Below are positions 1,444 through 31,397 of a DNA stretch of 33,962 nt, in pieces (positions within the stretch are counted from its first letter, which is position 1; the number at the start of each line of letters is the position of its first letter). Made by a program: the position numbers and the translations under genes. The DNA comes from a virus, in the IMG/VR virus record IMGVR_UViG_3300047481_000645, positions 1 through 33,962 of that record; one strand, given 5' to 3'. The notes beneath the pieces were generated by a model. The model was not told the origin of the DNA. It made no database searches and saw nothing but the letters and a program-made list of their open reading frames with translations.

Positions 1444-1451
1444 TATTTAGT
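1444..1451 (-). promoter_or_regulatory. Candidate T4-type late promoter (ACTAAATA)
   Basis: On the minus strand the octamer ACTAAATA lies about 17 nt upstream of the ATG at 1426 and overlaps the stop of the preceding giant gene. It matches the TAAATA core of the T4 late consensus TATAAATA but differs at the first two positions. The same octamer occurs in the 16247-16364 intergenic leader. Confidence 0.35.
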
Positions 1452-7400: not shown

Positions 7401-8943
7401 CAGGAATCTCGTCGCCTGCTCTCAATACCTGTCCTTCTAGGCCTATTGGCAATCGTGTTGGGCCATTATTTCCGTAATAAACCAAATCGCCTTTGGTGGT
7501 CAATACTGCGGTATCAGATCCTACTGCAAATAAATTCCAATAAGTACCGGTAACATCTTGATCAGGTCTGCTATTAGCAGCGCCGCCACCCGCTGGTCTA
7601 ATTGTTGAGCCGTCGTCACTTTCTGATCTGTGAGCTAGCACGCAGACATATGTATTGCTATCGTATCTTACAATATCTCCTAACACATAATCCGCATCAT
7701 CGATCCAACTTCCTTTCCAATCAAATCCGCCACTTAATTTTGTCCAGTAAGAACTGTTAGGTGGCTTAGGTGCTACGGTTACTGTCATAGATCCAGTAGC
7801 AGTTGATGGAACAAATGCTGTGCCTCCTGGTTGTGTGCTGATAGTAAATTCAGCTCCACCGGGAATAGTTCTAATATAATAATTTGTATCAGAACTTACA
7901 TTTCCAAAAGTTGTTCCGCTGAATTTCACTGACATTCCTACAACCATATCGGCTGTAGAAGTAACTGTGAACAGACCTGTACCAGCGTTTGAAGCTGTAC
8001 CTGTAGTTACGATAGAAGGAGAATCTGCTGTGGCAAGATATGTATATCCGCCTAGTCTTGCAACTTCACCTACCTTATAAGAAGTGGTATTAACCCAATC
8101 ACTGACAAAACTAAATCCTTTGCTGAATAAACTCCAATTAGATGTGCTAGTCGATGGGACTTCGTTAGAATGATTTAGTAAAGCTACGTATTGATTTCCA
8201 CCGTATCTTACAATATCGCCCGGTTGATAAAGTGTAGCACTATTCCAAGCATCTTCAAATGTAAAACCACCGACTAACTGAGTCCAATTTGCAGAATCTG
8301 TGGCAAACAATGCAGATGCAGTATGATATACAGTACAGATCCATAGTCCGCCACCGTATTTTACTACATCATTTACTTTATATCTTGCTGATACGGTCCA
8401 AGATCCCTTGTAATCTAAACCTGCATTAAATGTATCCCATTTACTTTGATCTGCTTCTAGGCCTAAGGCTGTTGTCGCAGCAGAAGTATGTCCTTGATTA
8501 CAAACATATGTAATCCCGCCATAACTTACTAGATCATTCACTTTATATCTAATTAGAGCGTTCCAAGATCCTTTCCAATCAAAACCTTCTAAGAATAAAG
8601 TCCATTTACCTTGATCATTTTCTAAACCGGATGCTAGAGTTGCAGCAGAAGTATGACTATCATTACAAACATAGAGATATCCTCCATATTTGACAATGTC
8701 ATTTAATTTGTAGAAAGTGGAGATTGACCAATCTCCTTTCCATTCTTGTCCGTCCGACATTAGATTCCATTTAGTAGGACTATATTCTAGGTCCGTATTA
8801 AAATCAGCGGCTGCTGTATGACCTACCGCACAAATATATGTTTTTCCGCCGTATCTAACAACGTCATCAATATAGTATGTTGTAGCGGTCGTCCAAGGAC
8901 CTTTCCATACAAATCTAATTCTACCTAGTTTAAATTCTGCCAT
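1447..8943 (-). CDS. Giant modular tail-fibre/adhesin-like protein, 2498 aa
   Basis: Largest gene in the window; GGAG lies 6-7 nt before the ATG. Visible architecture: residues 1-481 hold seven chitin-binding-like repeats (W..Y..ND.V.YGG..Y.C...HT); about 500-790 start a beta-helix-like part (FVAPNGVD, PWKTIRYA, then TGTYRETLPI), interrupted by a helical module; CxRDV helical modules centre near 610, 915, 1160 and 1370; about 1430-1560 carry LDPGWGPDD, GALHNGGN and NDFTQVISDGIGAW; about 1860-2120 are six Asp-box-like S-x-(D/N)-G-x-x-W repeats; about 2300-2498 form a C-terminus with RIRYSQVRLTGHDFLDIGTG, shared with the neighbouring 1831-aa paralogue. No signal peptide or catalytic triad is seen. 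It is probably a distal tail or baseplate-attached surface-binding protein. The two giants look like a tandem duplication, with this copy enlarged by module gain. Confidence 0.7.
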   Translation of the reverse strand: MAEFKLGRIRFVWKGPWTTATTYYIDDVVRYGGKTYICAVGHTAAADFNTDLEYSPTKWNLMSDGQEWKGDWSISTFYKLNDIVKYGGYLYVCNDSHTSAATLASGLENDQGKWTLFLEGFDWKGSWNALIRYKVNDLVSYGGITYVCNQGHTSAATTALGLEADQSKWDTFNAGLDYKGSWTVSARYKVNDVVKYGGGLWICTVYHTASALFATDSANWTQLVGGFTFEDAWNSATLYQPGDIVRYGGNQYVALLNHSNEVPSTSTSNWSLFSKGFSFVSDWVNTTSYKVGEVARLGGYTYLATADSPSIVTTGTASNAGTGLFTVTSTADMVVGMSVKFSGTTFGNVSSDTNYYIRTIPGGAEFTISTQPGGTAFVPSTATGSMTVTVAPKPPNSSYWTKLSGGFDWKGSWIDDADYVLGDIVRYDSNTYVCVLAHRSESDDGSTIRPAGGGAANSRPDQDVTGTYWNLFAVGSDTAVLTTKGDLVYYGNNGPTRLPIGLEGQVLRAGDEIPEWVSLGAQDFEYFVAPNGVDLPAPIWGRSFDKPWKTIRYACEQVENGPRNPNAKYLLEMNRAFIQKEVTEWIQYQITNNITPFTTSFDYDEYKCERDVGFIIDALIYDLGHGGNVRTRGAANAFVGGLTESENMPYGGAGLAAESDESVAAYTYFLTVVESVLDNQAPAVNYQTLNGDNSTAVVGQFIDTDYTSEDVMATVTDLVEIVTDAITAGVATNIPERDSPNNLIRIATGTYRETLPIIVPEQTALLGDELRSTNAGPAGSLTHRSDSKYSVETLTRLETVLGQIILGSNVTESAGNTSTQDVAFPYASTVEETDIKRLVRMMQHRIDFSVGTMNLASSADPTGYNSSYLAGYGDARTLLKENKEFIKAEIIAYITTNYPTIKYSKTACKRDVGYIVDAMIYDLTYSGSTQTLNAGLAYYDGAGSTLMIDSTEVTATIAAYGRLKTVMQQIIANTSVTASSGNVSTQWTDTTNLTGGSAANSFVGANIDIITAILTAGSTTGRPSVTVSSITGTNTFNTSAAHGLEAGDLVVPRTTANGVTVDVRYYVISAGLTSTAFRLATSYAGSAITVTNGTGLSIVLDTEDRPAATNAVTTTTALINAYTTLSAAVSTIVTGMTAYITANYGSLSYNSAKCQRDARIILDAVGYDFMFNSNFQTLKAAYAYLRSSASDVFENNQKAATRAAFSYVKTQAKSNVGGDATAQSRIETLMTLLDDIIFGATDEGSSCATGLRSADYALLQLERNRSYIVNELSAYISSTYTTTASATAATTNLITVSSTSWMQRNTAIRFTGTLVGGLATNTTYYVQNVVSSTTFKVSSTRDSNTALTLSSASGSFTVSLYYDSALCERDVNRYIDALKYDLKYPGNYKSRMAARLYANSVLGSLEEDMFYLRDNTGVRDMTLEGLTGDLLAPNEYGTSRVSAGAYCSLDPGWGPDDFRTWINTRSPYVQGVSTFGTAAIGQKIDGALHNGGNDSIVSNDFTQVISDGIGAWVANNGRAELVSVFTYYAHVGYLSTGGGRIRGTNGNCSYGDFGAVAEGYDVTETPNTATVDNRFQFDAVVGSVFTDTEAIYQLEFDNAGIDYTEATWTITGGGAGANVLQNEFRDDGVFTVRLLDLVDDSTNAPEASGNFGGFGYITNSNTAQTGSSTSLTLAATDSETSSAYVGMKIYLTGGTGVGQFGIISAYNSGTKIASVVKETTGASGWDHMISGTAIATPDASTTYTIEPAVSFTAPTFTNVAGTMSSSGVWSNVIFGSTTASYTSQYGTYTGSGTGANFTVVRNGWKYTTYIQTAGSGYERLETITIAGTNLGGLSSANDLVITITAVSTSGAILAFDAEGFGCGGRFVALRTGGTTAGAYSDNGSTWTAMTLPSSGDWTALAHGLIEDGSSVLQQSRFVAIRTGSNAAAYSDDGITWTATTMPTSTNWTSVVFGNDRFVAVNSSNSTVAVSLDGVVWDITGTNTGAATAITYGKGLFVTVRTGSTAAASSPDGVTWTARTLPASVAWNSVAFGNNIFVAVATDSNSGAYSINGTTWTAMTLGSADGSTVAGYQEVRYGQGLFMATAYIASVQDYSYVATSENGLNWTVRGLPNGGLDNALSGYGAVAFGSPHRTGYWVAIIKDSGNHVVRIRGGATAKARAYVADEKVFAIRMTEPGSGYDTAPTVTITDPNNIYEAPTSVRKGKGVLSQPTYTNRGTGYSTGSAEIDTGDGYADIYQSGSFVAVRRLTEQPVPGSNVVFDHLPDRTFKLVNVFTFLGSFDGAYTCFFQISPSFTISEAPEHLEDITTRIRYSQVRLTGHDFLDIGTGNVVETNYPGTATQTTIPANETVENDGGRVFYTSTDQDGNFRVGGLFSIEQSTGVATLNADAFNISGLQELNLGEVTLGGGSATITEFSTDPFFTADSDTVVPTQRAIKAYIAAQIGGGGAALNVNSVTAGSIKIDSNQITNITGASIKMKAVFEFRGGVTGYPMAWNYFLN
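2600..3355 (-). repeat. Six-blade Asp-box-like propeller in the 2498-aa protein
   Basis: Six repeats end in SDNGSTW, SDDGITW, SLDGVVW, SPDGVTW, SINGTTW and SENGLNW. They are separated by W..(V/I).(F/Y)G...FVAV strands. The pattern resembles BNR/Asp-box propellers, but with D and G adjacent rather than separated by one residue. No sialidase catalytic arginine cluster is recognisable, so binding is likelier than hydrolysis. Confidence 0.6.
4868..5105 (-). repeat. Roving insert domain, copy 3
   Basis: This copy carries NLITVSSTSWMQRNTAIRF, then TTYYVQNVVSSTTFKVS and a SGSFTVSLYY strand. It splits the fourth CxRDV helical module between its AYISSTY helix and its CERDV motif. The boundaries are approximate. 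Confidence 0.5.
5640..5875 (-). repeat. Roving insert domain, copy 2
   Basis: This copy carries SSITGTNTFNTSAAHGLEAG, then a VRYYVIS strand and TAFRLATSYAGSAITVTNG. It sits between the second and third CxRDV helical modules. The boundaries are approximate. Confidence 0.5.
7501..8943 (-). repeat. Seven ChtBD3-like repeats in the 2498-aa protein
   Basis: Residues 1-481 consist of seven units of about 50-70 residues starting at 1, 70, 125, 180, 231, 281 and 411. Each has a W near its start, then Y..(N/G)D.V.YGG..Y.C or a close variant, often HT, and a closing W. This is the pattern of chitin-binding type 3 (CBM5/12-like) modules. Unit 6 is interrupted by an insert domain at about residues 310-391. 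Confidence 0.7.
7771..8016 (-). repeat. Roving insert domain, copy 1
   Basis: Residues about 310-391 of the 2498-aa protein (LFTVTSTADMVVGMSVKF ... TNYYIRT ... FTIS) interrupt the sixth chitin-binding-like repeat. The same strand pattern recurs at 5640-5875 and 4868-5105. Confidence 0.5.
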
Positions 8944-8972: not shown

Positions 8973-11900
8973 TTATTGATTGAAAGATTTGTAGAACATT
9001 GCCTGCGCTACAATACTGCCGCTTACTCCAACAGTCTCTACTGTAGACTCAAAATCTGCTCTAACAGGAATAATAATTTTTTGTGTTAATGTATGGTTTA
9101 TTAAATCAGGACCAACTCTTACAAAACCAGCAATAAAGCTAGATGTTGAAATTTCTGATCCACCCACTGTTAATCTGTTATTCAAATAAGCAGCAATAGC
9201 TTTCTGTGTAGGAACTATGTTGTTTGAATCAGCGGTAAACAGTGCATCGGTTGAGAATTCTCTAATAACAACTCCGGAGCCGCCTAATCTTACTCCACCA
9301 ATTCTTAGTTCTGTTAATCCTGACAGGTCAAAGAAATCAGCACTGATTGTTACTATACCTGTTGCCTGTTCCACAGCAAATAGTTCACCTGCTCTAAAGT
9401 TACCGCTTTGATCTGTGCTGGTATAGAATACTCGACCGCCAGATTCCTCATAAACTTCATTTTCTGGAGTAGGTTGGTAAACACCAGTCGCATAAATTTC
9501 AGGATAATTAGTTTCTTCAAAATTTCCAGTACCGATGTCTAAGAAATCGTGTCCGGTAATTCTTACCTGACTGTATCTTATACGTATAGTTCCCGAAGTA
9601 CCATGCGTAAAATAATCTCTTGTTTTAATATTAGGTGTTAATCTTAATGTAGCACTAAGTCCGCCATTAATTGCACCAAGCTCTTCAACATCAACTAACT
9701 GATAAACCTGGGCATTGCCTGTAAACTGTACCTGAGCTCCGGGTTTTGGATAGAAACCTAGTCCGTCAACTGTTACAAATTTACCCACAGGATATACATC
9801 AGCATAACCGTCACCGGATATAGTTACAGTTGTACTAGAAGTCCTATATCCAGAACCACGATTAATCCATTCAGGATTTGTTAATACACCGTCTCCTAAT
9901 CTAACTTCTAGAACTGCATCGCTAGTCGAACTAGGATCTGTTATTGTGTAAGTTGGTGGTTCTCTATAACCAGATCCTGTATCCCAAAATTTTACTTTTG
10001 AAATTATTCCCGATGTTACTTCGACTCTGCCTAGGGCACGCTTTCCGGTTCTAATTCTTTGGAAATTAGCATTATTGTCTGCTACAGCTACCCATAAAGG
10101 TGTATTAGCTCCTGTGCTTGAATCGTCCAATTCTATATAGGGATTGCCTAATGTAACAGAAGTATAGACTGCAGATGTTGCAAGAGTTCTACCTGTCCAA
10201 TTTATTCCGTCTGGGCTCGTTGCTGAATATGTTGTTAAATCTGCTGTGGGGTCTCCGCCCACTACTCTGTTACCTGTACTGCCTACAGCAAAGAATATTC
10301 CCTGTCCATATCTTACTTTAGTCCAGCTATGAGGTGTTGATCCGTCCTGCTTAGGCATAGTTGATGCATACCAGGTGATTCCGTCAAAGCTATATGCACA
10401 ATCGCCTTGAGATGACACAGTGATCCATCTATTATTGCCGTAGGCCACAGACACCCAATCTCGCTGACTGCTGTCTGCTACGACATCCATGACTGTACCT
10501 GACCAATTTATTCCGTCGTCACTATAAGCAGCTACGTTGTTAGAATTAGCAATAGCTACCCAACGGCCTTTACCATAGGCTAGATCTATCCATTGATTTT
10601 CTGTAGAATCACCGATTACTGGCATACTAGAAGAAATCCAAGTCTGGCCGTTTAGAGAATATGCTGAACTGTTTAGATTTTCAGCAACTGCAACAAATTT
10701 TCCTCCACCATATGCTACCGCTGTCCAATTTCTAGATGCTGGCATAGTACGAGCAGTCCAAGTTATTCCGTCGAATGAACTTGAACATTGATTACTGCCG
10801 TATCTTATGGCTACGAATCTATTATTACCTGCTGCTACTCCTGTCCAATCACCGCTACTAGGCATATTGAATGAAACCCAGTCTAGTGCATTAGCTGAAT
10901 AGACACCAGCACTTCCGCCTAACGCTACTGCCACAAACTTACCGCTATGTCCAGTTCCTTCGTAGGTAAAAGAAATTATTGAATTAGTACTATCTTCACT
11001 TGTAGCTGTTACAGTAATTGTAATATCGTTGATACCTATTTGGCCGCCTATCGAATTTCCTTCTATGGTTATTGTATCACCTACAGAATATCCTGCACCT
11101 GCATTAACCAATGTTACTGAATATTCTCTTCCTACTTGATCAACATTAAAAGTTGCAGTAGCCGCAGGAATATCGATCGTCTGTCCTGATCCACTATCTC
11201 CAACTACGTTAGTAAATGATTGAGTAAGTTCACCGTAACAGATATCACTCCAAAAAGTATTAACAGTGGTGTTAACTGCTGCTACTGAAAAATCTGGCTC
11301 ACTAAAAGTGATTCTTGGTTCTATTCTATATCTTGTTGTAGTGTCGATAGGATTGGCAATCGCTTTTCCTGCTATCACATGATCCCAACCTGGGGTATCA
11401 TCGGATTCTTTTGATACTGAAACCACCTTAGATGTTGTATTGTAAGCAGTAACATATCCATATTGTCCTGTGCCCGTGCCGCTAACAATAATAATTCGTT
11501 TTCCTAAATAATCTGCTTGTAAATTTATGTCAGAAGCAGAAATGGTGATAGATGTTAGATCACCGTTGGGAGTGGTATGAACCTGAGCATTGCCTTGAAT
11601 AACACTGTAACCACCACCGCCTATTATTTCTGACGCCGGTGTTGTTGAAGTATCAATAGGACGAGCTTCAAAAATAGCTTGATCCCTAAAATCTTCAAAA
11701 CTTACTGATGCACCCGTTCCAGCTGAAGTAAATGTTGCACCAGCCTGAGTATATCTTTCTCCAGCATTATAAAATTCTAATATTTGTATTTCGTCAACAA
11801 ATTCACCAGCAAATGCATTTGCAACAATCGCTTGATTATTTCTTGTATTGATTGTGATTGTTTCAGGAGTTTCGGTCGAATCATTGCCGTCGGCAATCGC

Positions 11901-14468
11901 ACCGTAATTTCCGTACGAACAGTTTCCGTTGGTGCCTCTTATGATACCGCCATTTTCAGCTAGGTATCCGATGGTACAATAATATGTAAATACCGAAACT
12001 AATTCTGCTCTACCATTGTTTTGAACCAACGCTCCAATTCCGTCGCTGAGTACCTGTGTAAAGTCATTGCTGACCATTGAACGATTTCCACCGTTATGTA
12101 ACGCTCCATTGATCTTTTGTCCTGTACAAGCAGTACCGATATTTGTCACACCTTGGATATAAGGTGATCTGGTAGTGATCCAAACGCTTTGATCGTTCGG
12201 TCCCCAGCCCGGATCTAAACCAACAAATGTTCCTCCTGTTGGTCTTCTATAAAGGTCAAATACCGTAGGTGGATTTAAAATTCCTGTTAGACCTTTAAGA
12301 GTACAATCTCTTAGTCCAGTAGCATCTCTCATATAGAACATGTCTTCTGAAGAACTACCTTCGACTGCGCTAACGTAACCTCTTGCTTCTCTTAATGTTT
12401 TGTAATTTCCTGTATATTTGATATCGTAGATAAAACTATCTATAATTCTAGGTAATATTTGTCTGTAATAAATTTCAGGTACAGTATATAACGGATAAGT
12501 TAGTTGTAAAAATTTTACAATTTCATTTACACAGAAAGCTTTATTTGCTGCTAAAACCAATGCTGCATTTAAATATTCTTGATCTGTGGTTATGGTGTTT
12601 GAACCGCTGACATTCGGGGTGCTGCCTGTCCCTGCAATATGATAATCGATATATTGATTAAATGATGTAATCAAAGATTGCACTGATAGTGCAGGAGCTT
12701 CTCCTGTTTCCTGACCTGTATCTAATCCCAATGTTACCGGATTCAAAGTGTTTGTATTTGTTTTAGCGGGATTAAGTGTAGTCTGTGCTAACAAAGTCTG
12801 TATAATATTAGATAATCTTGTTAGTCCAGCTTTGAAATATATTCTGTCAGTGGCCAGTGCCGGATCAGCATCTGCTGCTGTTATTACTGTTGATCTTAAT
12901 TCAGATCCTAATACCACTGTTCTTTTAGGCACAACTATCGGTAAAATTTCTTCAAACACTCCTGTGCCAACATTGATAGTTGTAAAACCAGAAAAACCGT
13001 CGTCGGCTCTATAACAGGCATAGCGTACAGTTCTCCAAGGAGATGACGAAATAGTTCCTCTTAGAGGATCGTCACCGTCATCAACACCGTCTTTGCCTAC
13101 AAAAAATACTCGAGCTATAGTACCAAATACTCTATACTCAGCACTGTTATCGCTATTAATGCTTAATAACTCCCCTTGATTACCAAGTTCAATATTTGTT
13201 ACACCAAAAGTACTGGTGTCTCCTGCTAGACTTCTTGATAAATCATAGGTAAGCAGGTCACCTAACTGTCTTAGACCTACGTTAGGTCCTGCGCTTTGTA
13301 TTAATATATCCCAATAGATAAATCCTGATCCACTGTCACCAGGATAGTTTTGATCCGATGCTAGATGTTCAAAGTTACACTTGTAAACGTCACCGATAAA
13401 AGTAACTAGATCTCCTGCAGCATAAGTTTGACCTTCAGTCCAGGCTCCCCTAGCATTTTGTCCTATATCTAATACTTCCCAATTACTGGTATCTAGATAA
13501 TCTACAGAGCTTCCGTCAGCGGTTGTATCTAACAAAGCCACATATAAGATTCCGCCTCTGCGGACTACATCGCCGGTTTTGTAAGTATTAGTAGAACTCC
13601 ATAGTCCTATGAAATTATAATTCTCAGATAATTTCTGCCAATACGGATCATTCGTTTCTGCTTGATAAGATGATAGATATGGGTTTTGTCCGTAACTTGA
13701 TCTCAGTGCTAAATAGGTAAAGCCTCCGTGTCTAACCACACTACCGATACCGTAATAAGTTGAATTATTCCATTCGCCGTTGAATTCAGCACCCAATAAT
13801 TCTACTTCCCATTTTGTAGCATCAAATTCAGATGATGAAGTATAACCTTCTAAACAGATTAATAATGTACCATCACGAAGTACAATATCGTTTGGCTTAT
13901 ATCTTGTACTTACAGTATAATCACCTTTAAACTCAATACCTACAAAATGTGTTGCCCAGTTACTGCTGTCAAATTCTAATCCGTTAGCAGTAGTGGTTGA
14001 AGTATGTTCAATTGTGCATTTATAGACATTACCGCCGTAGCGTACAACATCATTGACTCCGTATCTGGTCAGTGCCTGCCAGTTTTGTCTGTAATTATAA
14101 CCAGCTGCATAAACAGTAACGTCTGCGATGTTAGAATTAAATAACGCACCGGAAGTAAAACTGTTAACTGTTAAGTAGAGATTACCTGCATATTTTATAA
14201 TATCTCCTGGATTATATAATGTAGTAGCTGCCCAATTACCTCTGTAGAGGTATCCGTCAGTCATTTTTCTCCAGGCTGGTGTAAAATCAGTATCACTAGG
14301 ATTGGCTAGAAATGTTTGATCGGAAGCAAAAATACCTGCTGTATGCTGTCTCATACAGACCCAACTAGCTCCGCCATATCTTACTATGTCGTCTTTATTA
14401 TAGACTGTGGTAGTAGTCCAATTGTTTCGCCAGGTATATCTAATCCTGCTGATCTTAAATTCTGCCAT
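8973..14468 (-). CDS. Giant modular tail-fibre/adhesin-like protein, 1831 aa
   Basis: Paralogue of the adjacent 2498-aa protein. Both start MAEFK followed by (I/L)xRIR and an aromatic W. Residues 1-394 hold seven chitin-binding-like repeats. A beta-helix-like start follows (VGKDGVDDGDDP, SPWRTVRYACYRADDGFSGF, INVGTGVFEEILPI), here uninterrupted. One diverged helical module (NKAFCVNEIVKFLQLTYPLY, RIIDSFIYDIKYTGNYK) leads into the shared core EDMFYMRDATGLRDCTLKGLTG, LDPGWGPND, GALHNGGN and NDFTQVLSDGIGALVQNNGR. Six Asp-box-like repeats lie near residues 1175-1430, then a conserved C-terminus with RIRYSQVRITGHDFLDIGTG. GGGG lies upstream of the ATG. Probably a virion surface-binding protein; the exact virion position is unknown. 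It reads as the shorter, less embellished member of the pair. Confidence 0.7.
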   Translation of the reverse strand: MAEFKISRIRYTWRNNWTTTTVYNKDDIVRYGGASWVCMRQHTAGIFASDQTFLANPSDTDFTPAWRKMTDGYLYRGNWAATTLYNPGDIIKYAGNLYLTVNSFTSGALFNSNIADVTVYAAGYNYRQNWQALTRYGVNDVVRYGGNVYKCTIEHTSTTTANGLEFDSSNWATHFVGIEFKGDYTVSTRYKPNDIVLRDGTLLICLEGYTSSSEFDATKWEVELLGAEFNGEWNNSTYYGIGSVVRHGGFTYLALRSSYGQNPYLSSYQAETNDPYWQKLSENYNFIGLWSSTNTYKTGDVVRRGGILYVALLDTTADGSSVDYLDTSNWEVLDIGQNARGAWTEGQTYAAGDLVTFIGDVYKCNFEHLASDQNYPGDSGSGFIYWDILIQSAGPNVGLRQLGDLLTYDLSRSLAGDTSTFGVTNIELGNQGELLSINSDNSAEYRVFGTIARVFFVGKDGVDDGDDPLRGTISSSPWRTVRYACYRADDGFSGFTTINVGTGVFEEILPIVVPKRTVVLGSELRSTVITAADADPALATDRIYFKAGLTRLSNIIQTLLAQTTLNPAKTNTNTLNPVTLGLDTGQETGEAPALSVQSLITSFNQYIDYHIAGTGSTPNVSGSNTITTDQEYLNAALVLAANKAFCVNEIVKFLQLTYPLYTVPEIYYRQILPRIIDSFIYDIKYTGNYKTLREARGYVSAVEGSSSEDMFYMRDATGLRDCTLKGLTGILNPPTVFDLYRRPTGGTFVGLDPGWGPNDQSVWITTRSPYIQGVTNIGTACTGQKINGALHNGGNRSMVSNDFTQVLSDGIGALVQNNGRAELVSVFTYYCTIGYLAENGGIIRGTNGNCSYGNYGAIADGNDSTETPETITINTRNNQAIVANAFAGEFVDEIQILEFYNAGERYTQAGATFTSAGTGASVSFEDFRDQAIFEARPIDTSTTPASEIIGGGGYSVIQGNAQVHTTPNGDLTSITISASDINLQADYLGKRIIIVSGTGTGQYGYVTAYNTTSKVVSVSKESDDTPGWDHVIAGKAIANPIDTTTRYRIEPRITFSEPDFSVAAVNTTVNTFWSDICYGELTQSFTNVVGDSGSGQTIDIPAATATFNVDQVGREYSVTLVNAGAGYSVGDTITIEGNSIGGQIGINDITITVTATSEDSTNSIISFTYEGTGHSGKFVAVALGGSAGVYSANALDWVSFNMPSSGDWTGVAAGNNRFVAIRYGSNQCSSSFDGITWTARTMPASRNWTAVAYGGGKFVAVAENLNSSAYSLNGQTWISSSMPVIGDSTENQWIDLAYGKGRWVAIANSNNVAAYSDDGINWSGTVMDVVADSSQRDWVSVAYGNNRWITVSSQGDCAYSFDGITWYASTMPKQDGSTPHSWTKVRYGQGIFFAVGSTGNRVVGGDPTADLTTYSATSPDGINWTGRTLATSAVYTSVTLGNPYIELDDSSTGANTPLWVAVADNNANFQRIRTGKRALGRVEVTSGIISKVKFWDTGSGYREPPTYTITDPSSTSDAVLEVRLGDGVLTNPEWINRGSGYRTSSTTVTISGDGYADVYPVGKFVTVDGLGFYPKPGAQVQFTGNAQVYQLVDVEELGAINGGLSATLRLTPNIKTRDYFTHGTSGTIRIRYSQVRITGHDFLDIGTGNFEETNYPEIYATGVYQPTPENEVYEESGGRVFYTSTDQSGNFRAGELFAVEQATGIVTISADFFDLSGLTELRIGGVRLGGSGVVIREFSTDALFTADSNNIVPTQKAIAAYLNNRLTVGGSEISTSSFIAGFVRVGPDLINHTLTQKIIIPVRADFESTVETVGVSGSIVAQAMFYKSFNQ
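10180..10945 (-). repeat. Six-blade Asp-box-like propeller in the 1831-aa protein
   Basis: Blade motifs are SANALDW (degenerate), SFDGITW, SLNGQTW, SDDGINW, SFDGITW and SPDGINW. They are spaced by W..VAYG...FVAV-type strands. The count matches the paralogue; the first blade has lost the D-G pair. Confidence 0.6.
13287..14468 (-). repeat. Seven ChtBD3-like repeats in the 1831-aa protein
   Basis: Units start at residues 1, 77, 128, 182, 231, 288 and 341. They have the W..Y..(N/G)D(I/V)V.YGG..Y.C pattern, and unit length is 49-76 residues. Unit number equals that in the paralogue, so the array predates the duplication or is held at seven. Confidence 0.7.
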
Positions 14469-20630: not shown

Positions 20631-21803
20631 TTAAGCAAATTTTAGGTTAGCTGTAGTTACAGCAACCTTGCCTAGATAGTCAGCAGCGTTACCTAGAGAT
20701 GATGCTGTGTTTGTTAACTCAACATATCCATAACGTGTCATGAAGCTAACTACTGGCTCAAATGTGCTAGGATCTAGAACAACACCACTGCTCATCAATG
20801 GAATGTATGGGCAATAGAATGCTGCTGCGTCAGATTCGCTAGAACCTTTGTAGCCAACTAGAACATCATCAGATGTTGCATAGCCGTTAACATAGATCTT
20901 CATTGCGCTGTTCAATGTACCAACAAACTTGGTGTTTGTAGGTGCTTCAAATGTGCCTTCTGTGGTTCTTGCGAATGCAGAAGTTGTTGCGCTTTGTAGC
21001 AATGTTAGAACTGTTGGAGATACAACAGCCCAGTTACCAGCACCACGACGTGTACGCTGAGCGATCAAGTTTGCAACACGGTTGATCTGAACAGCTAGAG
21101 CAGCGTGTTCGTCACCAACGAATGTAGCAGTACCAGAAACTGCGTTTTGGTCATAGGTTAGTACTGTACCAGCCAATGAATTCAATGATCCAAGAACTTC
21201 TTGATCGATTTCAGCAGTGATTTCTTGAGCAAGAGCTGCCATGATTTCTGCTTCGATATCGATACCCTGTTGAGCTTGTGCATCTTGTGCAGCTTCGAAA
21301 GTCCAGCGAGCTGATAACTTACGAGTTTTAGCTTCAACAGTTTGTTTCAAGATTTGAATGCTCATTCTGTTTCCAGCTACACCTTCTAAAGCGGCTGTAG
21401 CAGCAGCTTTGTCGTTAGCAGCAGAACCAGAATAACCTTCTGCAATCTTGAATGGGCTTAGTGCCTCTTCACCAGCGGTTACATCAGTACCCCCTGTGCT
21501 GTTAAAGCTATCTGCATAGCGAACACGTAGAGTATGGATCTGACCAACTGGTCCAGTCATTGGCTGTACGCCAACTAATTCATTAGCGATGACCGTAGGC
21601 ATCACACGTCTGATCACTGGAAGGATCACACGATTTAGGGTTGCAACGTTACCGGCGGATGTAGCACCAGAGGTAGCACTTTCTGCGAGATACTTGCGGG
21701 TATTCTCTAGAGTAGTTGCCATCACTGTACGCTTAGTACCTTGTAGGCCTTCAAGTAGTGCCTCTTTGGTTTCCGACCAGCGTGACTCGAGTAGTTGTGA
21801 CAT
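20631..21803 (-). CDS. 23: Major capsid protein gp23
   Basis: Identified by position after protease and scaffold genes and by T4 gp23-type sequence: KYLAESATSGATSAGNVATL near the start, LPVIRRVMPTVIANELVGVQ, MTGPVGQIHTLRVRYAD, then WAVVSPTVLTLLQS and the C-terminal IPLMSSGVVLDPSTFEPVVS. Residues 39-41 are L-A-E followed by S, the expected gp21 cleavage site that removes the N-terminal propeptide in T4. At 390 residues it is well short of T4 gp23 (521). The missing length is probably in the region of the T4 insertion domain. AAGGAG lies before the ATG, consistent with high expression. It assembles the icosahedral shell on the gp22 core and is matured by gp21. Confidence 0.95.
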   Translation of the reverse strand: MSQLLESRWSETKEALLEGLQGTKRTVMATTLENTRKYLAESATSGATSAGNVATLNRVILPVIRRVMPTVIANELVGVQPMTGPVGQIHTLRVRYADSFNSTGGTDVTAGEEALSPFKIAEGYSGSAANDKAAATAALEGVAGNRMSIQILKQTVEAKTRKLSARWTFEAAQDAQAQQGIDIEAEIMAALAQEITAEIDQEVLGSLNSLAGTVLTYDQNAVSGTATFVGDEHAALAVQINRVANLIAQRTRRGAGNWAVVSPTVLTLLQSATTSAFARTTEGTFEAPTNTKFVGTLNSAMKIYVNGYATSDDVLVGYKGSSESDAAAFYCPYIPLMSSGVVLDPSTFEPVVSFMTRYGYVELTNTASSLGNAADYLGKVAVTTANLKFA

Positions 21804-22926: not shown

Positions 22927-23556
22927 TTATTTGAGTCCAGAGATAATTCTCTTGAGACTCTCTGCTAGGTATTTCTGTGCCTTAAGATCGCCTTTGACTT
23001 CTTGTGCTATTCTAAATGCCTGATATCCACCTGTATTATTCATAAGGTGTTCATAAACTGGTGTAGGATAAGCTCCCGGGGCGCTGGGTTGTGCAACAAC
23101 GTCCACTGTAATAATTTCAAAACCTTGGACATTACCGCCGCCGTCAACTTCGCCACTGCCCCTGCTTGAAACTCCTAGTTTCACTCCCGACTCCAACATA
23201 GTCTGTACTAGTTGACCCATTGGAGTAGGAAGGATTTTAAGTTTTCCGTAGCCGTTAGGACCGTCCATCCACATCTTGGTAATCATGTGACTAACACGAT
23301 CAAGATTGATTTTCAAATCCTGAGGATGATCAACTTCTCCAAGAACTGAGTAGCCGCCAGAGATCTGTTCGTTGAGCGTTTTGACAGCCCTGCCAATTTC
23401 CTGAGAAGAATAAACACGTTGATTTGCATTACGGATGTCTCCTTGGATGCAAATCCCGTTTAAGTGCAGTGACTTTTTACCGTCACTGCTCTCATCTCGC
23501 TCCAAGACAATCTTAGCCTGGTCAAAACTCAAATGTTCTGATAGAGTAGTTTTCAC
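22927..23556 (-). CDS. 21: Prohead maturation protease gp21
   Basis: A 209-residue serine protease of the T4 gp21 type. GEVDHP at residues 73-78 supplies the catalytic His (H77), and GVSSRG at 128-133 supplies the nucleophile (S130 or S131). NGICIQGDIRNANQRVYS and DRVSHMITKMWMDG are further conserved blocks. The start is GTG at 23556 with AGGA 8 nt upstream. T4 gp21 cuts after (L/I)-x-E in head proteins and destroys the core. Matching sites are visible here in gp23, gp22, the acidic core protein and the N-termini of the two putative internal head proteins at 31394-33264. The length matches T4 gp21 (212 aa). Confidence 0.93.
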   Translation of the reverse strand: MKTTLSEHLSFDQAKIVLERDESSDGKKSLHLNGICIQGDIRNANQRVYSSQEIGRAVKTLNEQISGGYSVLGEVDHPQDLKINLDRVSHMITKMWMDGPNGYGKLKILPTPMGQLVQTMLESGVKLGVSSRGSGEVDGGGNVQGFEIITVDVVAQPSAPGAYPTPVYEHLMNNTGGYQAFRIAQEVKGDLKAQKYLAESLKRIISGLK

Positions 23557-25343: not shown

Positions 25344-25351
25344 TATTTATT
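25344..25351 (-). promoter_or_regulatory. Candidate T4-type late promoter (AATAAATAC)
   Basis: AATAAATA on the minus strand is one base from the late consensus and overlaps the gp20 stop. It is too close (5 nt) to the next ATG to give that gene a normal leader, so if active it would mainly serve the genes further downstream. Confidence 0.3.
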
Positions 25352-27047
25352 AAATTTCTGCTGCAGGTGCTGCTGGTTCTTCAGCCGGAGCTTCTGCTGC
25401 TGCGGCCATGTCCGGAGATGCTTCTGCTGTTTGTCCTTCGGCAGCTGATTGTAGGCCGCCGCCTGAAATTCCTATAGATCTCATTTCACCTGCGGCATCT
25501 AATGCTGGTTTTAATTTACCACTGTTTTCTTCTTTCCATAGTATTTCGTTTTCAACGATTTCTTCTTGTGTTAAACCTAGGAAACGTTTTAATCCAAAAC
25601 GTTTACTGATATAAGGAATCTGTGTTAACTGTGCATAGGTCGCTACTCTAGCTGTATCCAATTCTGATTGTCTGTAGGCTGCGAAGTTCTGTGGGGTATT
25701 AAATTTTAATTCAAATAATCCTGGATCAATATTAATACCGCTGTCATTTAACCAAGTTTTAAATTCTTGATCAAAAGTTTCTCCAATCATAGATTGCAGG
25801 CGTTTGCAATATTCATTAAATCTCAATTCTTGAATATACGCTGTACCAACTTTACCGTCCGCTACATTATTTGGTTGCTCATCAATAGCTGTAGGTAGAT
25901 AAGAACTCGGAATTCTTAAAGCGCGGAATAGTTTATTAGTAAAATAACGTAAATCTGTGATCTCACCAAGATTAGTTCCGCCCGGCAAGGTTTCAACTTT
26001 TGAACCCCGACCTTCTGCTGTTTGTGGGAAAAAATAATCTTCAGATACAGATAATGGATTATAACTGGCATCCATAACATTCGCGCCACCACCTGTGGCA
26101 CTCGGGATGCGACGTTGTTGAATTTCATTTTTAACACGCTCAACAAAACTCATAGCCATGTGAGCTGGCATATTACCTACGTCGACATAAAAAATTCTAC
26201 GTTCTGGAGCACGTTGGATACGATAGATAATGATCGCATCTTCCAACAATTCTTTTTGTTTATAAACTTTGAATACCGATTCTAACAACGAATTACCAAA
26301 AGGATAGTTATTATCCAATCCTTCACTTAGGCTAATGTGTACAACATTTTTAGCATCGATAGTTACTTCGTTAGCTTGATTGTTAAATCTTGTACCTGGA
26401 GGTTGTGCTGCTGAGCCAACCATTCCACGACCAAATCCTCCACCGCTAGTATAGCTGCTGGTGCCACTAGGTGCTGTGTTTGTAGTACCGTGGGGAGTTA
26501 CTGCGATTAACTCTTTGAAATTAAAATTAATATCTCGAACAACATATTGTTCAGGAATCTTACCTTCTGATTCGTTTACGATAATCTTAGAAACTTTAGC
26601 AGCATCTACAAATAACCATTTTTTGGTTTCAGGATCTCTTACAAAAAAACAGTCTCCGTATTTGAAAGCATTTCTAACTATACGGAAAATTCTAGTTTCA
26701 AATTGCTGTAACTTGCTCCATTTTTGTAAACTTTCTTTTAATAGTTTTGTTTCAGTGGTTGTTGCTCTACCTCTGAAAAAGCAATGAAACGGGGTAGCAT
26801 TTTCTTTATCTTTCTGTGTGCAGAATTCTGCTAGAATATCTAGGGCCGCATTAACTTCCGAATCCATATCCATGGTATCGTATTGCATATAGCGTTCAAC
26901 ACGATTAGGAGCTCCAGCATATACATCTGGTAAAAATGAACTATAGTTTGCTCGAGCCGGACCCGGACGACCTTTGCCCCCCAAAGGACTCATTGATCTA
27001 GATTCGTTATCGATCGTTACCGGTGTAAAATATTTTTTCCAACTCAT
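25350..27047 (-). CDS. 20: Portal vertex protein gp20
   Basis: Recognised from T4 gp20-type blocks: VERYMQYDTMDMDSEVNAAL with DILAEFCTQKD, RIFRIVRNAFKYGDCFFVRD, EDAIIIYRIQRAPERRIFYV with DVGNMP, MDASYNPLSVSEDYFFPQ, and RFNEYCKRLQSMIGETFDQE. The length of 565 is close to T4 (524), with a low-complexity Ala/Pro/Glu-rich tail (AAAAEAPAEEPAAPAAEI) and a Gly/Ser-rich insertion near residues 185-220 (GTSSYTSGGGFGRGMVG). The portal forms the dodecameric ring through which DNA enters and to which the neck attaches. It begins 12 nt after the tape-measure stop and is probably co-transcribed with it. gp20 is widely used as a marker for T4-like phages in water samples. Confidence 0.95.
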   Translation of the reverse strand: MSWKKYFTPVTIDNESRSMSPLGGKGRPGPARANYSSFLPDVYAGAPNRVERYMQYDTMDMDSEVNAALDILAEFCTQKDKENATPFHCFFRGRATTTETKLLKESLQKWSKLQQFETRIFRIVRNAFKYGDCFFVRDPETKKWLFVDAAKVSKIIVNESEGKIPEQYVVRDINFNFKELIAVTPHGTTNTAPSGTSSYTSGGGFGRGMVGSAAQPPGTRFNNQANEVTIDAKNVVHISLSEGLDNNYPFGNSLLESVFKVYKQKELLEDAIIIYRIQRAPERRIFYVDVGNMPAHMAMSFVERVKNEIQQRRIPSATGGGANVMDASYNPLSVSEDYFFPQTAEGRGSKVETLPGGTNLGEITDLRYFTNKLFRALRIPSSYLPTAIDEQPNNVADGKVGTAYIQELRFNEYCKRLQSMIGETFDQEFKTWLNDSGINIDPGLFELKFNTPQNFAAYRQSELDTARVATYAQLTQIPYISKRFGLKRFLGLTQEEIVENEILWKEENSGKLKPALDAAGEMRSIGISGGGLQSAAEGQTAEASPDMAAAAEAPAEEPAAPAAEI

Positions 27048-27059
27048 TTTATTTTTCCA

Positions 27060-30000
27060 TTATATAGTGAAAACATCACCTGACAGATTGGATTGCACTG
27101 AAAGTTGTCTTTCTCCTACATCAATTTGTTGTCGATTTATTCCTATGAGAACATCCATCTTAGTATTTAAGCTGGCTAACAACGATTCAGCCGATTCTTG
27201 ATTACGTCCTGGTACAGTTTTTTGTCCAGGTGTGCTAGGTTGAACTTCTGCTTCCTTTCTAGCTTTTTCTTCTGCTGCTTTTCTTGCAGCCTGGGCTTCT
27301 AATTCAGTTTTAGGAGTTTCAGCTGCGCCTACCTTGCTAGTAGCCGGAGTGCTAGGAGACATTCCTGGAGATGCTGCTTTGGCTGTAGGTTTTTCTGTTG
27401 ACTCTTTCTGAAAATCGGCTAATTTCTTCTCTGCTGCCGCCAATGTCTGTGCTGCAACTTTTTTCTCTGCATCTGTTTTTGCGTAACTCAGTTCGTCTCT
27501 AGCGGAATCAACCGCTGCTTGTTTATCAAATGCTTCCAGTTTCTTTTGAGATTCTACAGCACGTTTAACAGCTTCCGCTTTTTCTTTGTCTGTACCAGTA
27601 AAGGCTGCTGCTTTATCTTTTTCAAACTCTTTGACTATTTCGGCTCTTTGTTCTGTTCTTGCTTTTTGTTTTTTCTCTCTATCGCCTTCTACAAACATTG
27701 ATGATTTCTGTTGTTCTGCAAAAGTCATTAATGAATTTATAGGACTACTTAGATCAACTTCTTTGGTTGTTGATGCTGCATCTTTAGCTGCATCAGCAGT
27801 TTCTTTTGCAGATGCTGCTCCTTGGCCTAATGAACCGCTTGCAGATTTGATATGTTTAGCTCCGGTTTCTTTATATCCTGTAACTTTTTTATCAATATCT
27901 AATTTTAGTTCTTCACGCTTCTCCTGATTTTTAATAGCCTTGAGTCGTTTTCCTTCTTCAGTGGCTTCAATAGCATTTTGTTTTCTTCGGTCTTCTAATC
28001 GTTGTTGTATTTCTTTTTTCTCTTCTTCTAAGGCTTTTTTCTCTTCTTCTCTGGCTTTTTCTTCTTCGTCAGATCTACCCATACCTGGAATCTTAGCAAT
28101 GATATCGCCAATAGCGCCGGTAAATTCTTTGAACTTAACTTTAATTAAACGAAGTCCATCTCCTAACATATTAAATCCAAATCCCGCCTCTTCTAATTTC
28201 TTATATAAGAAAAAGAATCCAGCAGCTATGGCACCTACTGCGGCTATTAACGGTAGGAATGGAATTGTCGCGGCTATCAAAGCTGTGCCAAAACTAATCA
28301 GTGCACCTATACCTGTAACTAATTGATAGGTAGCATAGGCAGTTAATGCTGTTAATAAAGTAGCAAATATTGGAGTAAGATTATCTGCGATGAATGATCC
28401 TATCGCTTGAAAAGCTGGCCATACATAGTCTTTGATTATTCCACCAAGTGCTTTGAATACCGGGGTGACTATTTCTCCTATGGCTGATGCTATGTCCATA
28501 AATGTAGGCAAGAACGAATCTCGAACAAATACAACAACATCTAGAAACGCTGGGTATAATGTATCTCTAAAGAATGCACCAATTTCTTCAAATATAGGTT
28601 TGAAAAAGTCTTTTAAGGTAGTGGCAACATCTTGGATGACCGGTATTAAAGTATCAACGAAAAATCCTACCAATACCTGCATAGCAGGAATCACGTAGGT
28701 GTTTATTATTTCTCCTAAGAACTTTAGTGCTGGTTCTAGCACTGCTGTTAAAATACCTGCCACTACATTAAAAGCAGGAACCACAAATGTTTGAACAAGG
28801 CCAGCTAACAGAGTAAATGCCTTTAACATTAGATCAAGTATACCACTGTTGGCCAATGCCATCTGAAAACCGTTACTAAACGCTGCTAGAGTTTGTTTGG
28901 TCTTTTCCATCTGTGCAGCCATACCGTCAGTTTTATTAATAGCGTTTTCCTGTTCAGCAGTTGCCTGTATCAGACCATCTTTGGTAATATTAGCAGAATC
29001 ATTCATCATCATGAATGTCTTAGCTATGTCTTTGTTATACCTAGCATTGTCTCCGTATTGTTTCTTGGCCGCTGCACCTTCCATCTTTAAAAGATTTTGA
29101 AGTTCTTGTTGTTGAGCAACTGTTGGGGCGATACCTCGTTTACTCATTTCAGCAAACTCTGCCATTTTCGCTGCAGACTTAGGCATCAATGCCATAAACT
29201 GTTGACTTTCCTCAGTGGTAGCTGTACCTGTGGCCATGATGTCTTCAGCTACGCTTCTTAGTCCTGGAGGCAATCCCGTTATAGTGTTCATCATTTTCTT
29301 AGCTTCGGTAGCGTTCATATTACCTACCATCGCTTGGAATTGTGCCGACGCTGCTAATTTTGCCTGAGCATCTTCTTGTTGTTTTCTTGTTTCGCCTGTG
29401 ATTTTTGCCAATGCATCAATTTCTTTGAGATATGATCTGCTGCCTTTGGCTAGATCTGCATTGCTCATTCCCTGAAGCTTGCCTAAACTGCCCATTAACT
29501 TACTGTATGAAGCGATACCTTGATTAACATCAGCTGTGCTAAAACCCAATGCATATAAATCGTTGCTGGTTTTTCGTACGGCATTTGAAATTTGACTGAA
29601 TCTATTTGCACCAGCTTCAGTAGTACCACCTAACAGTCTTAGACCTTCTCCGTTCTGTGCTATCATCTGACCAAATTTTTCCATGGTCATTCCTGCGCCG
29701 CTGGCTGCTCTAGAGAAATTAGTTATACTTCCGCCAAATGTAGCACCAGCGGCTGTAGCACTTTGAAACGAATCTGTTACTTTAGTTGCTGCCGAAGCCA
29801 CTGCTGCGAAGATGGTACCTACTACTGGAATACCAGAAAATACTCCGGCAGCGTTTTCTACACTGTCTCCTACATTGGCAAATGTCTGAACGATTTGTGC
29901 TGCTCGTTCACCGAGGCCTAATACACCTCTTCCAGCAGTCTCTACGATTTTTGTAAGTCTGCCCATCCCAAAGCTAACCAACCCAACTGCTCTTCCAACT

Positions 30001-30257
30001 CTACCAAAAGCATCACCGCTTTCTTTAACTTCTTTAGTAGTTTGTTGTGTAGTTTTGGTGCTTTCTTTGACTGCTTTGGTCTGCTGATTTAATGCTGCAC
30101 CTCCAGCTCCGCCGCCTGTACCGCCACCTGCGCCTCCAGCTCCACCTTTGCCTGCACCTTGCATAGCTTTGAGAATTTCTTTCAAGGTGGCTTCAGAGGC
30201 AGCATTCTTAGCTACTACATTACCAATTCCAGGAATATCGATTGTGACTTGAGCCAT
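27060..30257 (-). CDS. Tail tape measure protein, 1065 aa
   Basis: A long helical protein with classic tape-measure features. The N-terminal TIDIPGIGNVVAKNAASEAT is followed by a Gly-rich linker (33-53). Residues about 85-480 are helical (RFSQISNAVRKTSNDLYALG). Residues 490-634 contain ten 15-residue repeats each with a Pro in register. Hydrophobic stretches follow at about 634-686, compatible with a membrane-active segment. A highly charged coiled coil starts at about 728, then a disordered Pro/Thr/Lys tail and C-terminal SLLASLNTKMDVLIGINRQQ. Using the rule of about 0.15 nm per residue, it could set a tail up to about 160 nm. The probable chaperone pair gp26/gp51 is divergent and adjacent. 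It is functionally equivalent to T4 gp29, though much longer. Confidence 0.8.
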   Translation of the reverse strand: MAQVTIDIPGIGNVVAKNAASEATLKEILKAMQGAGKGGAGGAGGGTGGGAGGAALNQQTKAVKESTKTTQQTTKEVKESGDAFGRVGRAVGLVSFGMGRLTKIVETAGRGVLGLGERAAQIVQTFANVGDSVENAAGVFSGIPVVGTIFAAVASAATKVTDSFQSATAAGATFGGSITNFSRAASGAGMTMEKFGQMIAQNGEGLRLLGGTTEAGANRFSQISNAVRKTSNDLYALGFSTADVNQGIASYSKLMGSLGKLQGMSNADLAKGSRSYLKEIDALAKITGETRKQQEDAQAKLAASAQFQAMVGNMNATEAKKMMNTITGLPPGLRSVAEDIMATGTATTEESQQFMALMPKSAAKMAEFAEMSKRGIAPTVAQQQELQNLLKMEGAAAKKQYGDNARYNKDIAKTFMMMNDSANITKDGLIQATAEQENAINKTDGMAAQMEKTKQTLAAFSNGFQMALANSGILDLMLKAFTLLAGLVQTFVVPAFNVVAGILTAVLEPALKFLGEIINTYVIPAMQVLVGFFVDTLIPVIQDVATTLKDFFKPIFEEIGAFFRDTLYPAFLDVVVFVRDSFLPTFMDIASAIGEIVTPVFKALGGIIKDYVWPAFQAIGSFIADNLTPIFATLLTALTAYATYQLVTGIGALISFGTALIAATIPFLPLIAAVGAIAAGFFFLYKKLEEAGFGFNMLGDGLRLIKVKFKEFTGAIGDIIAKIPGMGRSDEEEKAREEEKKALEEEKKEIQQRLEDRRKQNAIEATEEGKRLKAIKNQEKREELKLDIDKKVTGYKETGAKHIKSASGSLGQGAASAKETADAAKDAASTTKEVDLSSPINSLMTFAEQQKSSMFVEGDREKKQKARTEQRAEIVKEFEKDKAAAFTGTDKEKAEAVKRAVESQKKLEAFDKQAAVDSARDELSYAKTDAEKKVAAQTLAAAEKKLADFQKESTEKPTAKAASPGMSPSTPATSKVGAAETPKTELEAQAARKAAEEKARKEAEVQPSTPGQKTVPGRNQESAESLLASLNTKMDVLIGINRQQIDVGERQLSVQSNLSGDVFTI
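28356..28790 (-). repeat. Ten 15-residue Pro-register repeats in the tape measure
   Basis: Prolines at residues 494, 509, 524, 539, 554, 569, 584, 599, 614 and 629 are exactly 15 apart. Each sits in a hydrophobic-x-P-(A/I/V/T)-(F/M/L) context (VVPAF, LEPAL, VIPAM, LIPVI, FKPIF, LYPAF, FLPTF, VTPVF, VWPAF, LTPIF). Confidence 0.9.
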
Positions 30258-30324: not shown

Positions 30325-31185
30325 ATGTCAGAAAATCAAAGAACGATAGTGAGCGGTAATCCTTTAGCAAATTATTTTAGACAACCTAAAATATGGCTGA
30401 AGCTACCTTCGGAAGGAAAATTCTATCCTAAAAATGCCATCGATATTTCTGCCAATGGCACATATCCAGTATATGCGATGACTGCCAAAGATGAATTGAT
30501 GTTCAAAACTCCGGACGCATTGTTATCCGGAGAAAGCACTGTACAGGTTATCAAAAGCTGTATTCCTGCGATTATGGATCCTTGGAAGATGCCTAGTATC
30601 GATCTTGATGTTTGTTTAATTGCTATTAGAATCGCTACCTATGGTGAAACCATGGAGTTAAACAGTACTTGCCCTCATTGCAAAGCAGAAAATGAATTTG
30701 AAATGAATTTAACTGCTTGGTTAGAAAAATTTGGTACATTTGTCTATGAAGAAACTGTAACTATCGATCCGTTGACTTTTTATCTAAGACCCTATACCTA
30801 TCAAGAAGTCACTAAGAATACTATCAAAACTTTTGAACAACAGAGAATTTTTTCAATTGTCAATGACGAAAACATCAGTGACGAAGAAAAAGTAGAACGT
30901 TTTGGTAAAAGTTTTGTTAAACTCACTGAATTAACTGTAGATATTGTAGCCGGTTGTATTGCAAAAATACAAACACCAGAGGGCGAAACCAGCGATCCTA
31001 ATCAGATTAAAGAATTTATCTACAACTGTTCTAAAGATGTGTTTGAACGTATCTCTGAACATATGACCAAACTCAAAGAAAATGTCGAACTTAAACCTCA
31101 AGATGTTGTCTGTAAAGAATGTGAAACACCTTATATTCTACCTGTAACCATGGATCAGTCAAATTTTTTCGCAGTAAGATCTTAA
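30325..31185 (+). CDS. 26: gp26-like baseplate hub/tail assembly protein
   Basis: Start chosen at the ATG at 30325 (MSENQRTIVSGNPLANYFRQ), because GGAG at 30315-30318 is its ribosome binding site; a TTG at 30313 would overlap that site. The 286-aa protein matches the T4 base-plate gp26 family as found in aquatic phages: PKIWLKLPSEGKFYPKNAI, ELMFKTPDALLSGES, CIPAIMDPW. Two CxxC pairs, C116PHC119 and C263KEC266, look like a zinc ribbon. Only this gene and the following -1 frame read on the plus strand, from an exact late promoter. The last codons contain a slippery run, and a gp51-like frame follows, so it probably also exists as a 357-aa frameshift fusion, recalling the tail-assembly chaperone pair of lambda-like phages. 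Confidence 0.8.
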   Translation: MSENQRTIVSGNPLANYFRQPKIWLKLPSEGKFYPKNAIDISANGTYPVYAMTAKDELMFKTPDALLSGESTVQVIKSCIPAIMDPWKMPSIDLDVCLIAIRIATYGETMELNSTCPHCKAENEFEMNLTAWLEKFGTFVYEETVTIDPLTFYLRPYTYQEVTKNTIKTFEQQRIFSIVNDENISDEEKVERFGKSFVKLTELTVDIVAGCIAKIQTPEGETSDPNQIKEFIYNCSKDVFERISEHMTKLKENVELKPQDVVCKECETPYILPVTMDQSNFFAVRS

Positions 31186-31209
31186 CATTATCCCTGCCGG
31201 AGATCTTAC
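31161..31209 (+). promoter_or_regulatory. Probable -1 programmed ribosomal frameshift signal
   Basis: In the gp26 frame the heptamer reads A-AAT-TTT (31161-31167), a canonical X-XXY-YYZ site, overlapped by T-TTT-TTC (31164-31170). Six nt later, GTAAGATCT (31174-31182) pairs perfectly with AGATCTTAC (31201-31209) around an 18-nt loop; the gp26 stop at 31183-31185 begins that loop. A -1 slip enters an open frame of 76 codons that lacks its own start. The stem is only one-third GC, so its strength is modest. Confidence 0.75.
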
Positions 31210-31397
31210 AGGAAGCTGAACAATTAGACAAAGAGGCACGGATAATAAAGAAAGATGTTCTCAAACTGTGTTGGTATATGAGAGGTCTTTCTTACAGTGA
31301 AGGTATGAATATGAGTTACGATGAAAGAGAAATCGTAGCAGAGATTATCAAAGAAAATCTAGAAACTACCAAGAAAACAGGTTTAAATTTCTTTTAA
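31167..31397 (+). CDS. 51: gp51-like hub assembly protein, expressed by -1 frameshift
   Basis: The frame is open from 31125 to the TAA at 31395-31397, but its first ATG (31278) lies halfway through and has no ribosome binding site; there is no GTG or TTG earlier. The encoded residues after the slip (RSKILTLSLPEILQEAEQLD, KLCWYMRGLSYSEGMNMSYD, IIKENLETTKKTGLNFF) match what I remember of cyanophage gp51-like hub assembly proteins, which share a WYMRG core and a NLETTKKSG.PFF end. Expression as a gp26-gp51 fusion of 357 residues is therefore inferred; coordinates are given from the slip site. The last 4 nt overlap the stop of the convergent gene at 31394. T4 gp51 is a larger, separate catalyst of hub assembly. 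Confidence 0.7.
   Translation, partial: FRSKILTLSLPEILQEAEQLDKEARIIKKDVLKLCWYMRGLSYSEGMNMSYDEREIVAEIIKENLETTKKTGLNFF

Follow-up and report, generated by a model that had tools for sequence, protein, structure and literature searches.

A conserved slippery site predicted to fuse gp26 to a gp51-like tail by −1 frameshifting in T4-like and jumbo phages

The window analysed here, a virus contig of 33,962 bases, carries the T4-type head genes gp20 (portal, 25350–27047), gp21 (protease, 22927–23556) and gp23 (major head, 20631–21803), together with a gp26 gene whose 3′ end is the subject of this report (Table 1). Window gp26 matches PF12322 with 61.3 bits against a cut-off of 24.5, placing it in the T4 gp26 family, and matches phrog_150 (baseplate hub) at 1.5e-22 in a PHROG search. 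On the opposite strand, 67 nt from gp26, lies a probable tape-measure gene, so that gp26 shows the adjacency typical of G/GT-type genes; this neighbour's own Pfam and PHROG matches are weak, and its identity leans on the annotation of relatives. Further away on the minus strand, two giant paralogous ORFs (1447–8943, 2498 aa, and 8973–14468, 1831 aa) have N-termini built of repeated modules of the type 'W..Y..ND.V.YGG..Y.C...HT', and are probably tail-fibre or adsorption proteins.

Table 1. Features at the gp26 locus of the window.
Feature	Position	Strand	Basis
Probable tape-measure gene, 1065 aa, divergent from gp26	27060–30257	−	position; RaK2 counterpart annotated tape-measure-like
gp26, 0-frame product, short form, 286 aa	30325–31185	+	ATG 30325, TAA 31183–31185; T4 gp26/PF12322 family
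Overlapping heptamer A AAT TTT	31161–31167	+	in phase; conserved in close relatives only
Putative slip site T TTT TTC	31164–31170	+	0-frame phase, seven codons before gp26 stop; kept in distant lineages
−1 extension, gp51-like tail, 75 aa + stop	31170–31397	+	from CGC at 31170; translation, dN/dS 0.28
Putative stimulatory hairpin, 5′ arm	31174–31182	+	covariation
gp26 0-frame stop TAA	31183–31185	+	read directly
Putative stimulatory hairpin, 3′ arm	31201–31209	+	covariation

The window gp26 gene ends ...AAT TTT TTC GCA GTA AGA TCT TAA, and both A AAT TTT and the overlapping T TTT TTC can be read directly from it in the 0-frame phase, as a preliminary description of this DNA had pointed out. 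That description had also noted a −1 frame open from 31125 to 31394 (stop at 31395–31397) whose first ATG, GTG or TTG lies at 31278, and a perfect 9-bp stem with the gp26 stop within its loop; both are present as it described them, and the stem has an additional U-G pair (31183/31200). Its 6-nt spacer holds for A AAT TTT, whereas T TTT TTC, the heptamer that is conserved, lies 3 nt from the base of the stem. A slip at either heptamer would give the identical product, ...DQSNFF/RSKILTLSLPEIL..., a predicted fusion of 282 + 75 = 357 aa with the junction SNFF/RSKIL. Across the 25 ORFs of the window (11,011 codons), a census of in-phase X XXY YYZ heptamers (Y = A/T, Z not G) returned 30, and the gp26 site is more than a chance occurrence because it is the only one leading into a long −1 ORF (77–78 codons; next best, 26).

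Scanning viral contigs with a gp26 alignment yielded 80 loci with 45–66% identity to the query, which together with four close relatives, seven isolates and the window make up our jumbo-type set. T TTT TTC occurs in phase, 10–25 nt 5′ of the gp26 stop and followed by an open −1 tail, in all 86 jumbo-type loci that reach the site (two contigs ending before or at it are excluded), and a re-scan of these loci again found it. The −1 tails follow the pattern FFR..[IL]L...CWYMRG...ETTKK.GLPFF or a divergent equivalent. Likewise, each of the 80 cyanophage-type loci extending to the site has the in-phase heptamer and a −1 tail, with two contigs ending inside the tail. The heptamer persists in isolates at 24–37% identity (Phosso, Atu_ph07, PA5oct, 121Q, RaK2, CBB and Vibrio 2.275.O) and is also found in P-SSM2, S-PM2, KVP40, phiW-14, AS-szw, SCTP-2 and Desulfovibrio phage 7757, while the run is lengthened to 7–8 T in Cr30, XacN1, phiM12 and HTVC008M. 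Twelve lineages all have the codons NNT TTT TTC, though each of these genes makes free use of the synonyms; multiplying the probabilities calculated for each gene from its own synonymous codon use gives P ~8e-11, a figure that serves as a guide only, as it treats lineages as independent that are not fully so. The retention of a slippery run in related genomes, which the preliminary description had proposed as a check, thus extends to both jumbo-type and cyanophage-type relatives. Because the base preceding the T run varies among relatives whereas T TTT TTC is invariant, and because A AAT TTT itself varies, we discarded the latter as the principal slip heptamer; the proposed −1 frameshift at the end of gp26 gains support from conservation, covariation and selection, but with T TTT TTC as its heptamer.

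Taken by itself, the window stem has an ordinary fold energy (z = −1.45), and the hairpin is convincing because of covariation rather than energy. In 45 relatives of the window, 88.9% of the cells of the stem are paired, compared with 26–53% for slid versions, and 31 cells show two-sided compensatory changes against 7.2 ± 2.2 in shuffles, as expected of the covarying stem that had been anticipated. RNAalifold recovered the core of the stem unaided, and the full stem is absent in about ten of the 45 relatives. The pair formed by covarying columns 27 and 54 links the wobble positions of a Lys and an Ile codon; since the −1 frame lets either base vary freely, this covariation is not due to the protein. 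The pseudoknot suggested earlier between TGCC in the loop and GGCA downstream had 67.6% of its cells paired against 63.8% in shuffles, a marginal excess, and we did not adopt it. An Rfam search of the frameshift region gave no match. Unrelated strong folds occupy the equivalent 3′ position in Atu_ph07 (z −6.3), S-PM2 (−5.5), PA5oct (−3.5), P-SSM2 (−3.3) and Phosso (−3.2), and RaK2 has no strong fold downstream of its slip site. On the T4/cyanophage side, all nine lineages have a Shine-Dalgarno (SD)-like element 5′ of the slip site, with a gap of 6–9 nt in eight and 16 nt in phiM12; its dG ranges from −5.5 to −9.8, where values of −6 or below arise in 5% of the background. The element is absent from all ten jumbo-side lineages examined, and we read the downstream structure and the upstream SD-like element as two ways to stimulate one shift. 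In the −1 frameshift of Escherichia coli dnaX, an upstream SD-like element, the slippery heptamer A AAA AAG and a downstream hairpin together produce a shift that truncates the protein. This layout matches the cyanophage side, but the heptamer here is U UUU UUC, and the shift would extend the product.

The window gp26 gene therefore very probably yields a short protein and a longer one made by slipping back one base. Most ribosomes would terminate at 31183 and release gp26, while a fraction would shift one base backwards at U UUU UUC, with tRNA-Phe re-pairing in both the P and A sites and the downstream hairpin aiding the slip; these slipped ribosomes would go on to complete the gp26–gp51 fusion. 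We infer ribosomal slipping at T TTT TTC, and its efficiency, from the sequences. Full-text searches of the open literature returned neither a gp26/gp51 frameshift nor gp26–gp51 paralogy as the relic of one, though an earlier report in a subscription journal is possible.

The preliminary description stated that T4 encodes gp26 and gp51 separately, which is true of the genes, two divergent ones lying side by side, but T4 gp51 itself consists of a gp26-type domain plus a tail and so corresponds to a pre-fused long form. T4 gp26 (8.8e-64) and T4 gp51 (3.9e-52) are paralogues that both match PF12322 end to end, and gp51 extends beyond this domain, matching phrog_150 to position 280 as well as phrog_634, the cyanophage gp51 family. 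In cyanophages the phrog_150 profile is divided between two frames (4–234 and 227–278). Aligned to conceptual fusions, T4 gp51 runs unbroken across the junction, opposite LQSFF-RISMAHEDLESYYKINFALMQHHKYSL..., and T4 gp26 ends in ...RGLKEFFELL, coded GAG TTC TTT GAG, without a slip site. A tail HMM built from frameshifting phages only matches gp51 of T4 (1.3e-7) and of 44RR (7.8e-9) and gave no match to gp26 of either, so the tails of the cyanophage and KVP40 type are homologous to the T4 gp51 tail. For the jumbo-type tail, position and weak similarity hint at the same correspondence: in comparison with the T4/cyanophage gp51 tail, the 121Q tail scores E = 0.0045 and the window tail 0.15, and the window tail, which is longer, aligns to the gp51 tail with an hhalign probability of 25%. 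Direct hhalign comparison of small jumbo alignments with single T4 sequences was uninformative because single divergent sequences served as targets, and the relationship to the T4 proteins was settled with Pfam, PHROG and the tail HMM.

In a tree of the domain, the gp26 pair and the gp51 pair of T4 and 44RR group together (89/84) within a cluster of frameshifting phages that does not include the jumbo phages, although support is moderate because the branches are long. KVP40 and AS-szw, which also belong to the Straboviridae, retain one gene with a slip site, and every frameshifting isolate searched whole has one gp26-type domain, with no separate long-form gene found. An ancestral frameshift gene was likely duplicated in the T4 line, one copy being fixed short and the other long; in T4 and 44RR2.8t the frameshift pair would thereby have been replaced by gene 26, a short form that no longer has the slip site, and gene 51, a fused form in one continuous ORF. 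The direction of this change, from frameshift to two genes, we infer as well. We regard it as likely that the T4-like and jumbo phages inherited the −1 shift pair from their ancestor and that T4 genes 26 and 51 are duplicated descendants of this pair, a derived case of the G/GT rule. Outside the Straboviridae, the two-gene state is seen in Campylobacter phage CP220 (Eucampyvirinae), where short 26-like and fused 51-like genes lie ~8 kb apart, perhaps a second replacement.

In the G/GT class of tail-assembly chaperones, the short form binds the tape measure, the tail of the long form binds the tube protein, and both are absent from virions. Lambda gpG/gpGT and P2 E/E′ resemble the window in having a short product with a rarer −1 extension, a heptamer near the 3′ end and a tape-measure neighbour. 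Site, phase, conservation, selection and covariation in the window likewise point to two products of the G/GT type, the longer of them predicted. The window proteins differ from both pairs in belonging to the T4 gp26 family (PF12322), and Pfam and PHROG profile searches found no similarity of window gp26 to G-type chaperones. AlphaFold models had pLDDT values of 83 (gp26) and 93 (tail), and neither gave a match among solved structures (E ≤ 1 for gp26 against the PDB); a sequence search found no relatives with solved structures either. Because the gp26 model lacks a PDB match, no fold link to G-type chaperones can be drawn, and its viral fold matches are, where named, T4 gp26-type hub proteins. 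The likeness to G/GT is thus at the level of gene expression, and we found no kinship with known G-type chaperones.

A published account (PMC3004832) presents T4 gp26 and gp51 as chaperones of hub assembly, with gp51 an essential protein of unknown function that the particle does not contain. This description, along with the absence of a fold match to solved chaperones, would suit a real frameshift whose pair acts only in baseplate-hub assembly, without a G/GT-like link between tape measure and tube. We consider this reading unlikely, if far from negligible, as the short/long architecture equals that of G/GT and the pair is linked to the tape measure by gene order: in Cr30, gp26 and gp51 are followed by one ORF and then the annotated tape measure, and T4 has the order 51-27-28-29. 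This position beside the tape measure fits gp26 and the gp26–gp51 fusion being the T4-like equivalent of G and GT, with a presumed chaperone role. Overall, we put at roughly 0.9 the probability that the window gene makes gp26 and a frameshifted gp26–gp51, a G/GT counterpart that would be ancestral and that is represented by two paralogous genes in T4 and 44RR2.8t.

The −1 frame shows purifying selection as soon as gp26 has ended: over the 24 codons that directly follow its stop, the median pairwise dN/dS is 0.28, compared with 1.0 and 1.95 in the other frames. In most jumbo-type loci the first ATG comes only after this stretch, so the ribosomes translating it have entered from gp26 or used an unusual start. 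Cyanophage gp26/gp51 loci (P-SSM2, S-PM2; gp51 in phrog_634) share the slip site and the −1 overlap with the window but differ in their shorter tail (~60 aa), upstream SD-like element and conserved in-frame ATG just past the gp26 stop. A similar ATG is present in the close relatives L001–L003 (92–95% protein identity) and absent from L004 and the window, and a separate gp51 made by reinitiation is possible in the cyanophages and L001–L003. Such starts, the TAATG of KVP40, the ATGA overlaps of Phosso and Atu_ph07, and the annotation of gp51 as its own gene by depositors of several records, P-SSM2 and S-PM2 among them, would be expected if gp51 were in general a separate small protein restarting at or after the gp26 stop by translational coupling, the T run being incidental. 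In the window, however, the first ATG, GTG or TTG lies ~95 nt beyond the stop, and half of the tail would be lost. Among 85 full jumbo-type loci, 73 have no ATG in the first 12 codons of the −1 frame, and 38 have no ATG, GTG or TTG there or upstream in the −1 ORF. Most jumbo-type relatives therefore lack a gp51 start while keeping the run, the reverse of the clear start without a slippery run that had been named in advance as evidence against a frameshift. Coupling would also leave the invariant NNT TTT TTC, the upstream SD-like element and the fused T4 gp51 unexplained, and we judge it very improbable.

The homopolymer at the junction, with its 7–8 T in Cr30, XacN1, phiM12 and HTVC008M, could in principle yield the fusion by transcriptional rather than ribosomal slippage. 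Most lineages, however, have exactly six T and then C, which is short for polymerase slippage, and both the hairpin that covaries and the SD-like element lying 6–9 nt away are stimulators of ribosomes and not of polymerases; we hold this explanation to be very improbable. Homopolymers in metagenome data are classic error sites, and a seventh T would give a single fused gene, but six T followed by C recur in ~165 independent contigs and in sequenced isolates, all with the 0-frame stop kept, and we therefore rejected a sequencing or assembly error, which the preliminary description had raised, as having a negligible chance of being correct.

With frameshifting as the preferred reading, the short and long proteins would form the T4-like counterpart of the G/GT-type chaperone pair. 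A review describes the G-T frameshift as conserved in long-tailed phages 'except T4' (PMC5009743); our analysis suggests that this exception is only apparent, as T4 seems to have split the short/long pair into genes 26 and 51. The neighbouring position of gp26 and gp51 would be explained, the essential T4 gp51 would gain a candidate role as the long chaperone, and the locus would offer a case of a frameshift replaced through gene duplication. Cyanophage and jumbo-phage genomes would also turn out to have gp51 annotated wrongly or not at all: P-SSM2 and S-PM2 records give gp26 and gp51 as two separate genes, the tail is unannotated in those of PA5oct, RaK2 and AS-szw, and in Atu_ph07 it is cut to 40 aa.

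The Ackermannviridae examined (Salmonella phage Vi01 and Vibrio phage 1.255.O) have no T6 heptamer, and Vibrio phage 1.255.O has a TAATG overlap instead; the site seems to have been lost or replaced in this family. In Bacillus phage SP-15 the 3′ end of gp26 has GAA TTT TTT CAC beside a gp51-like tail (..MAIFERKEMYSRLL..) that is read in the +1 (= −2) frame, and a +1 or −2 shift may here take the place of −1.
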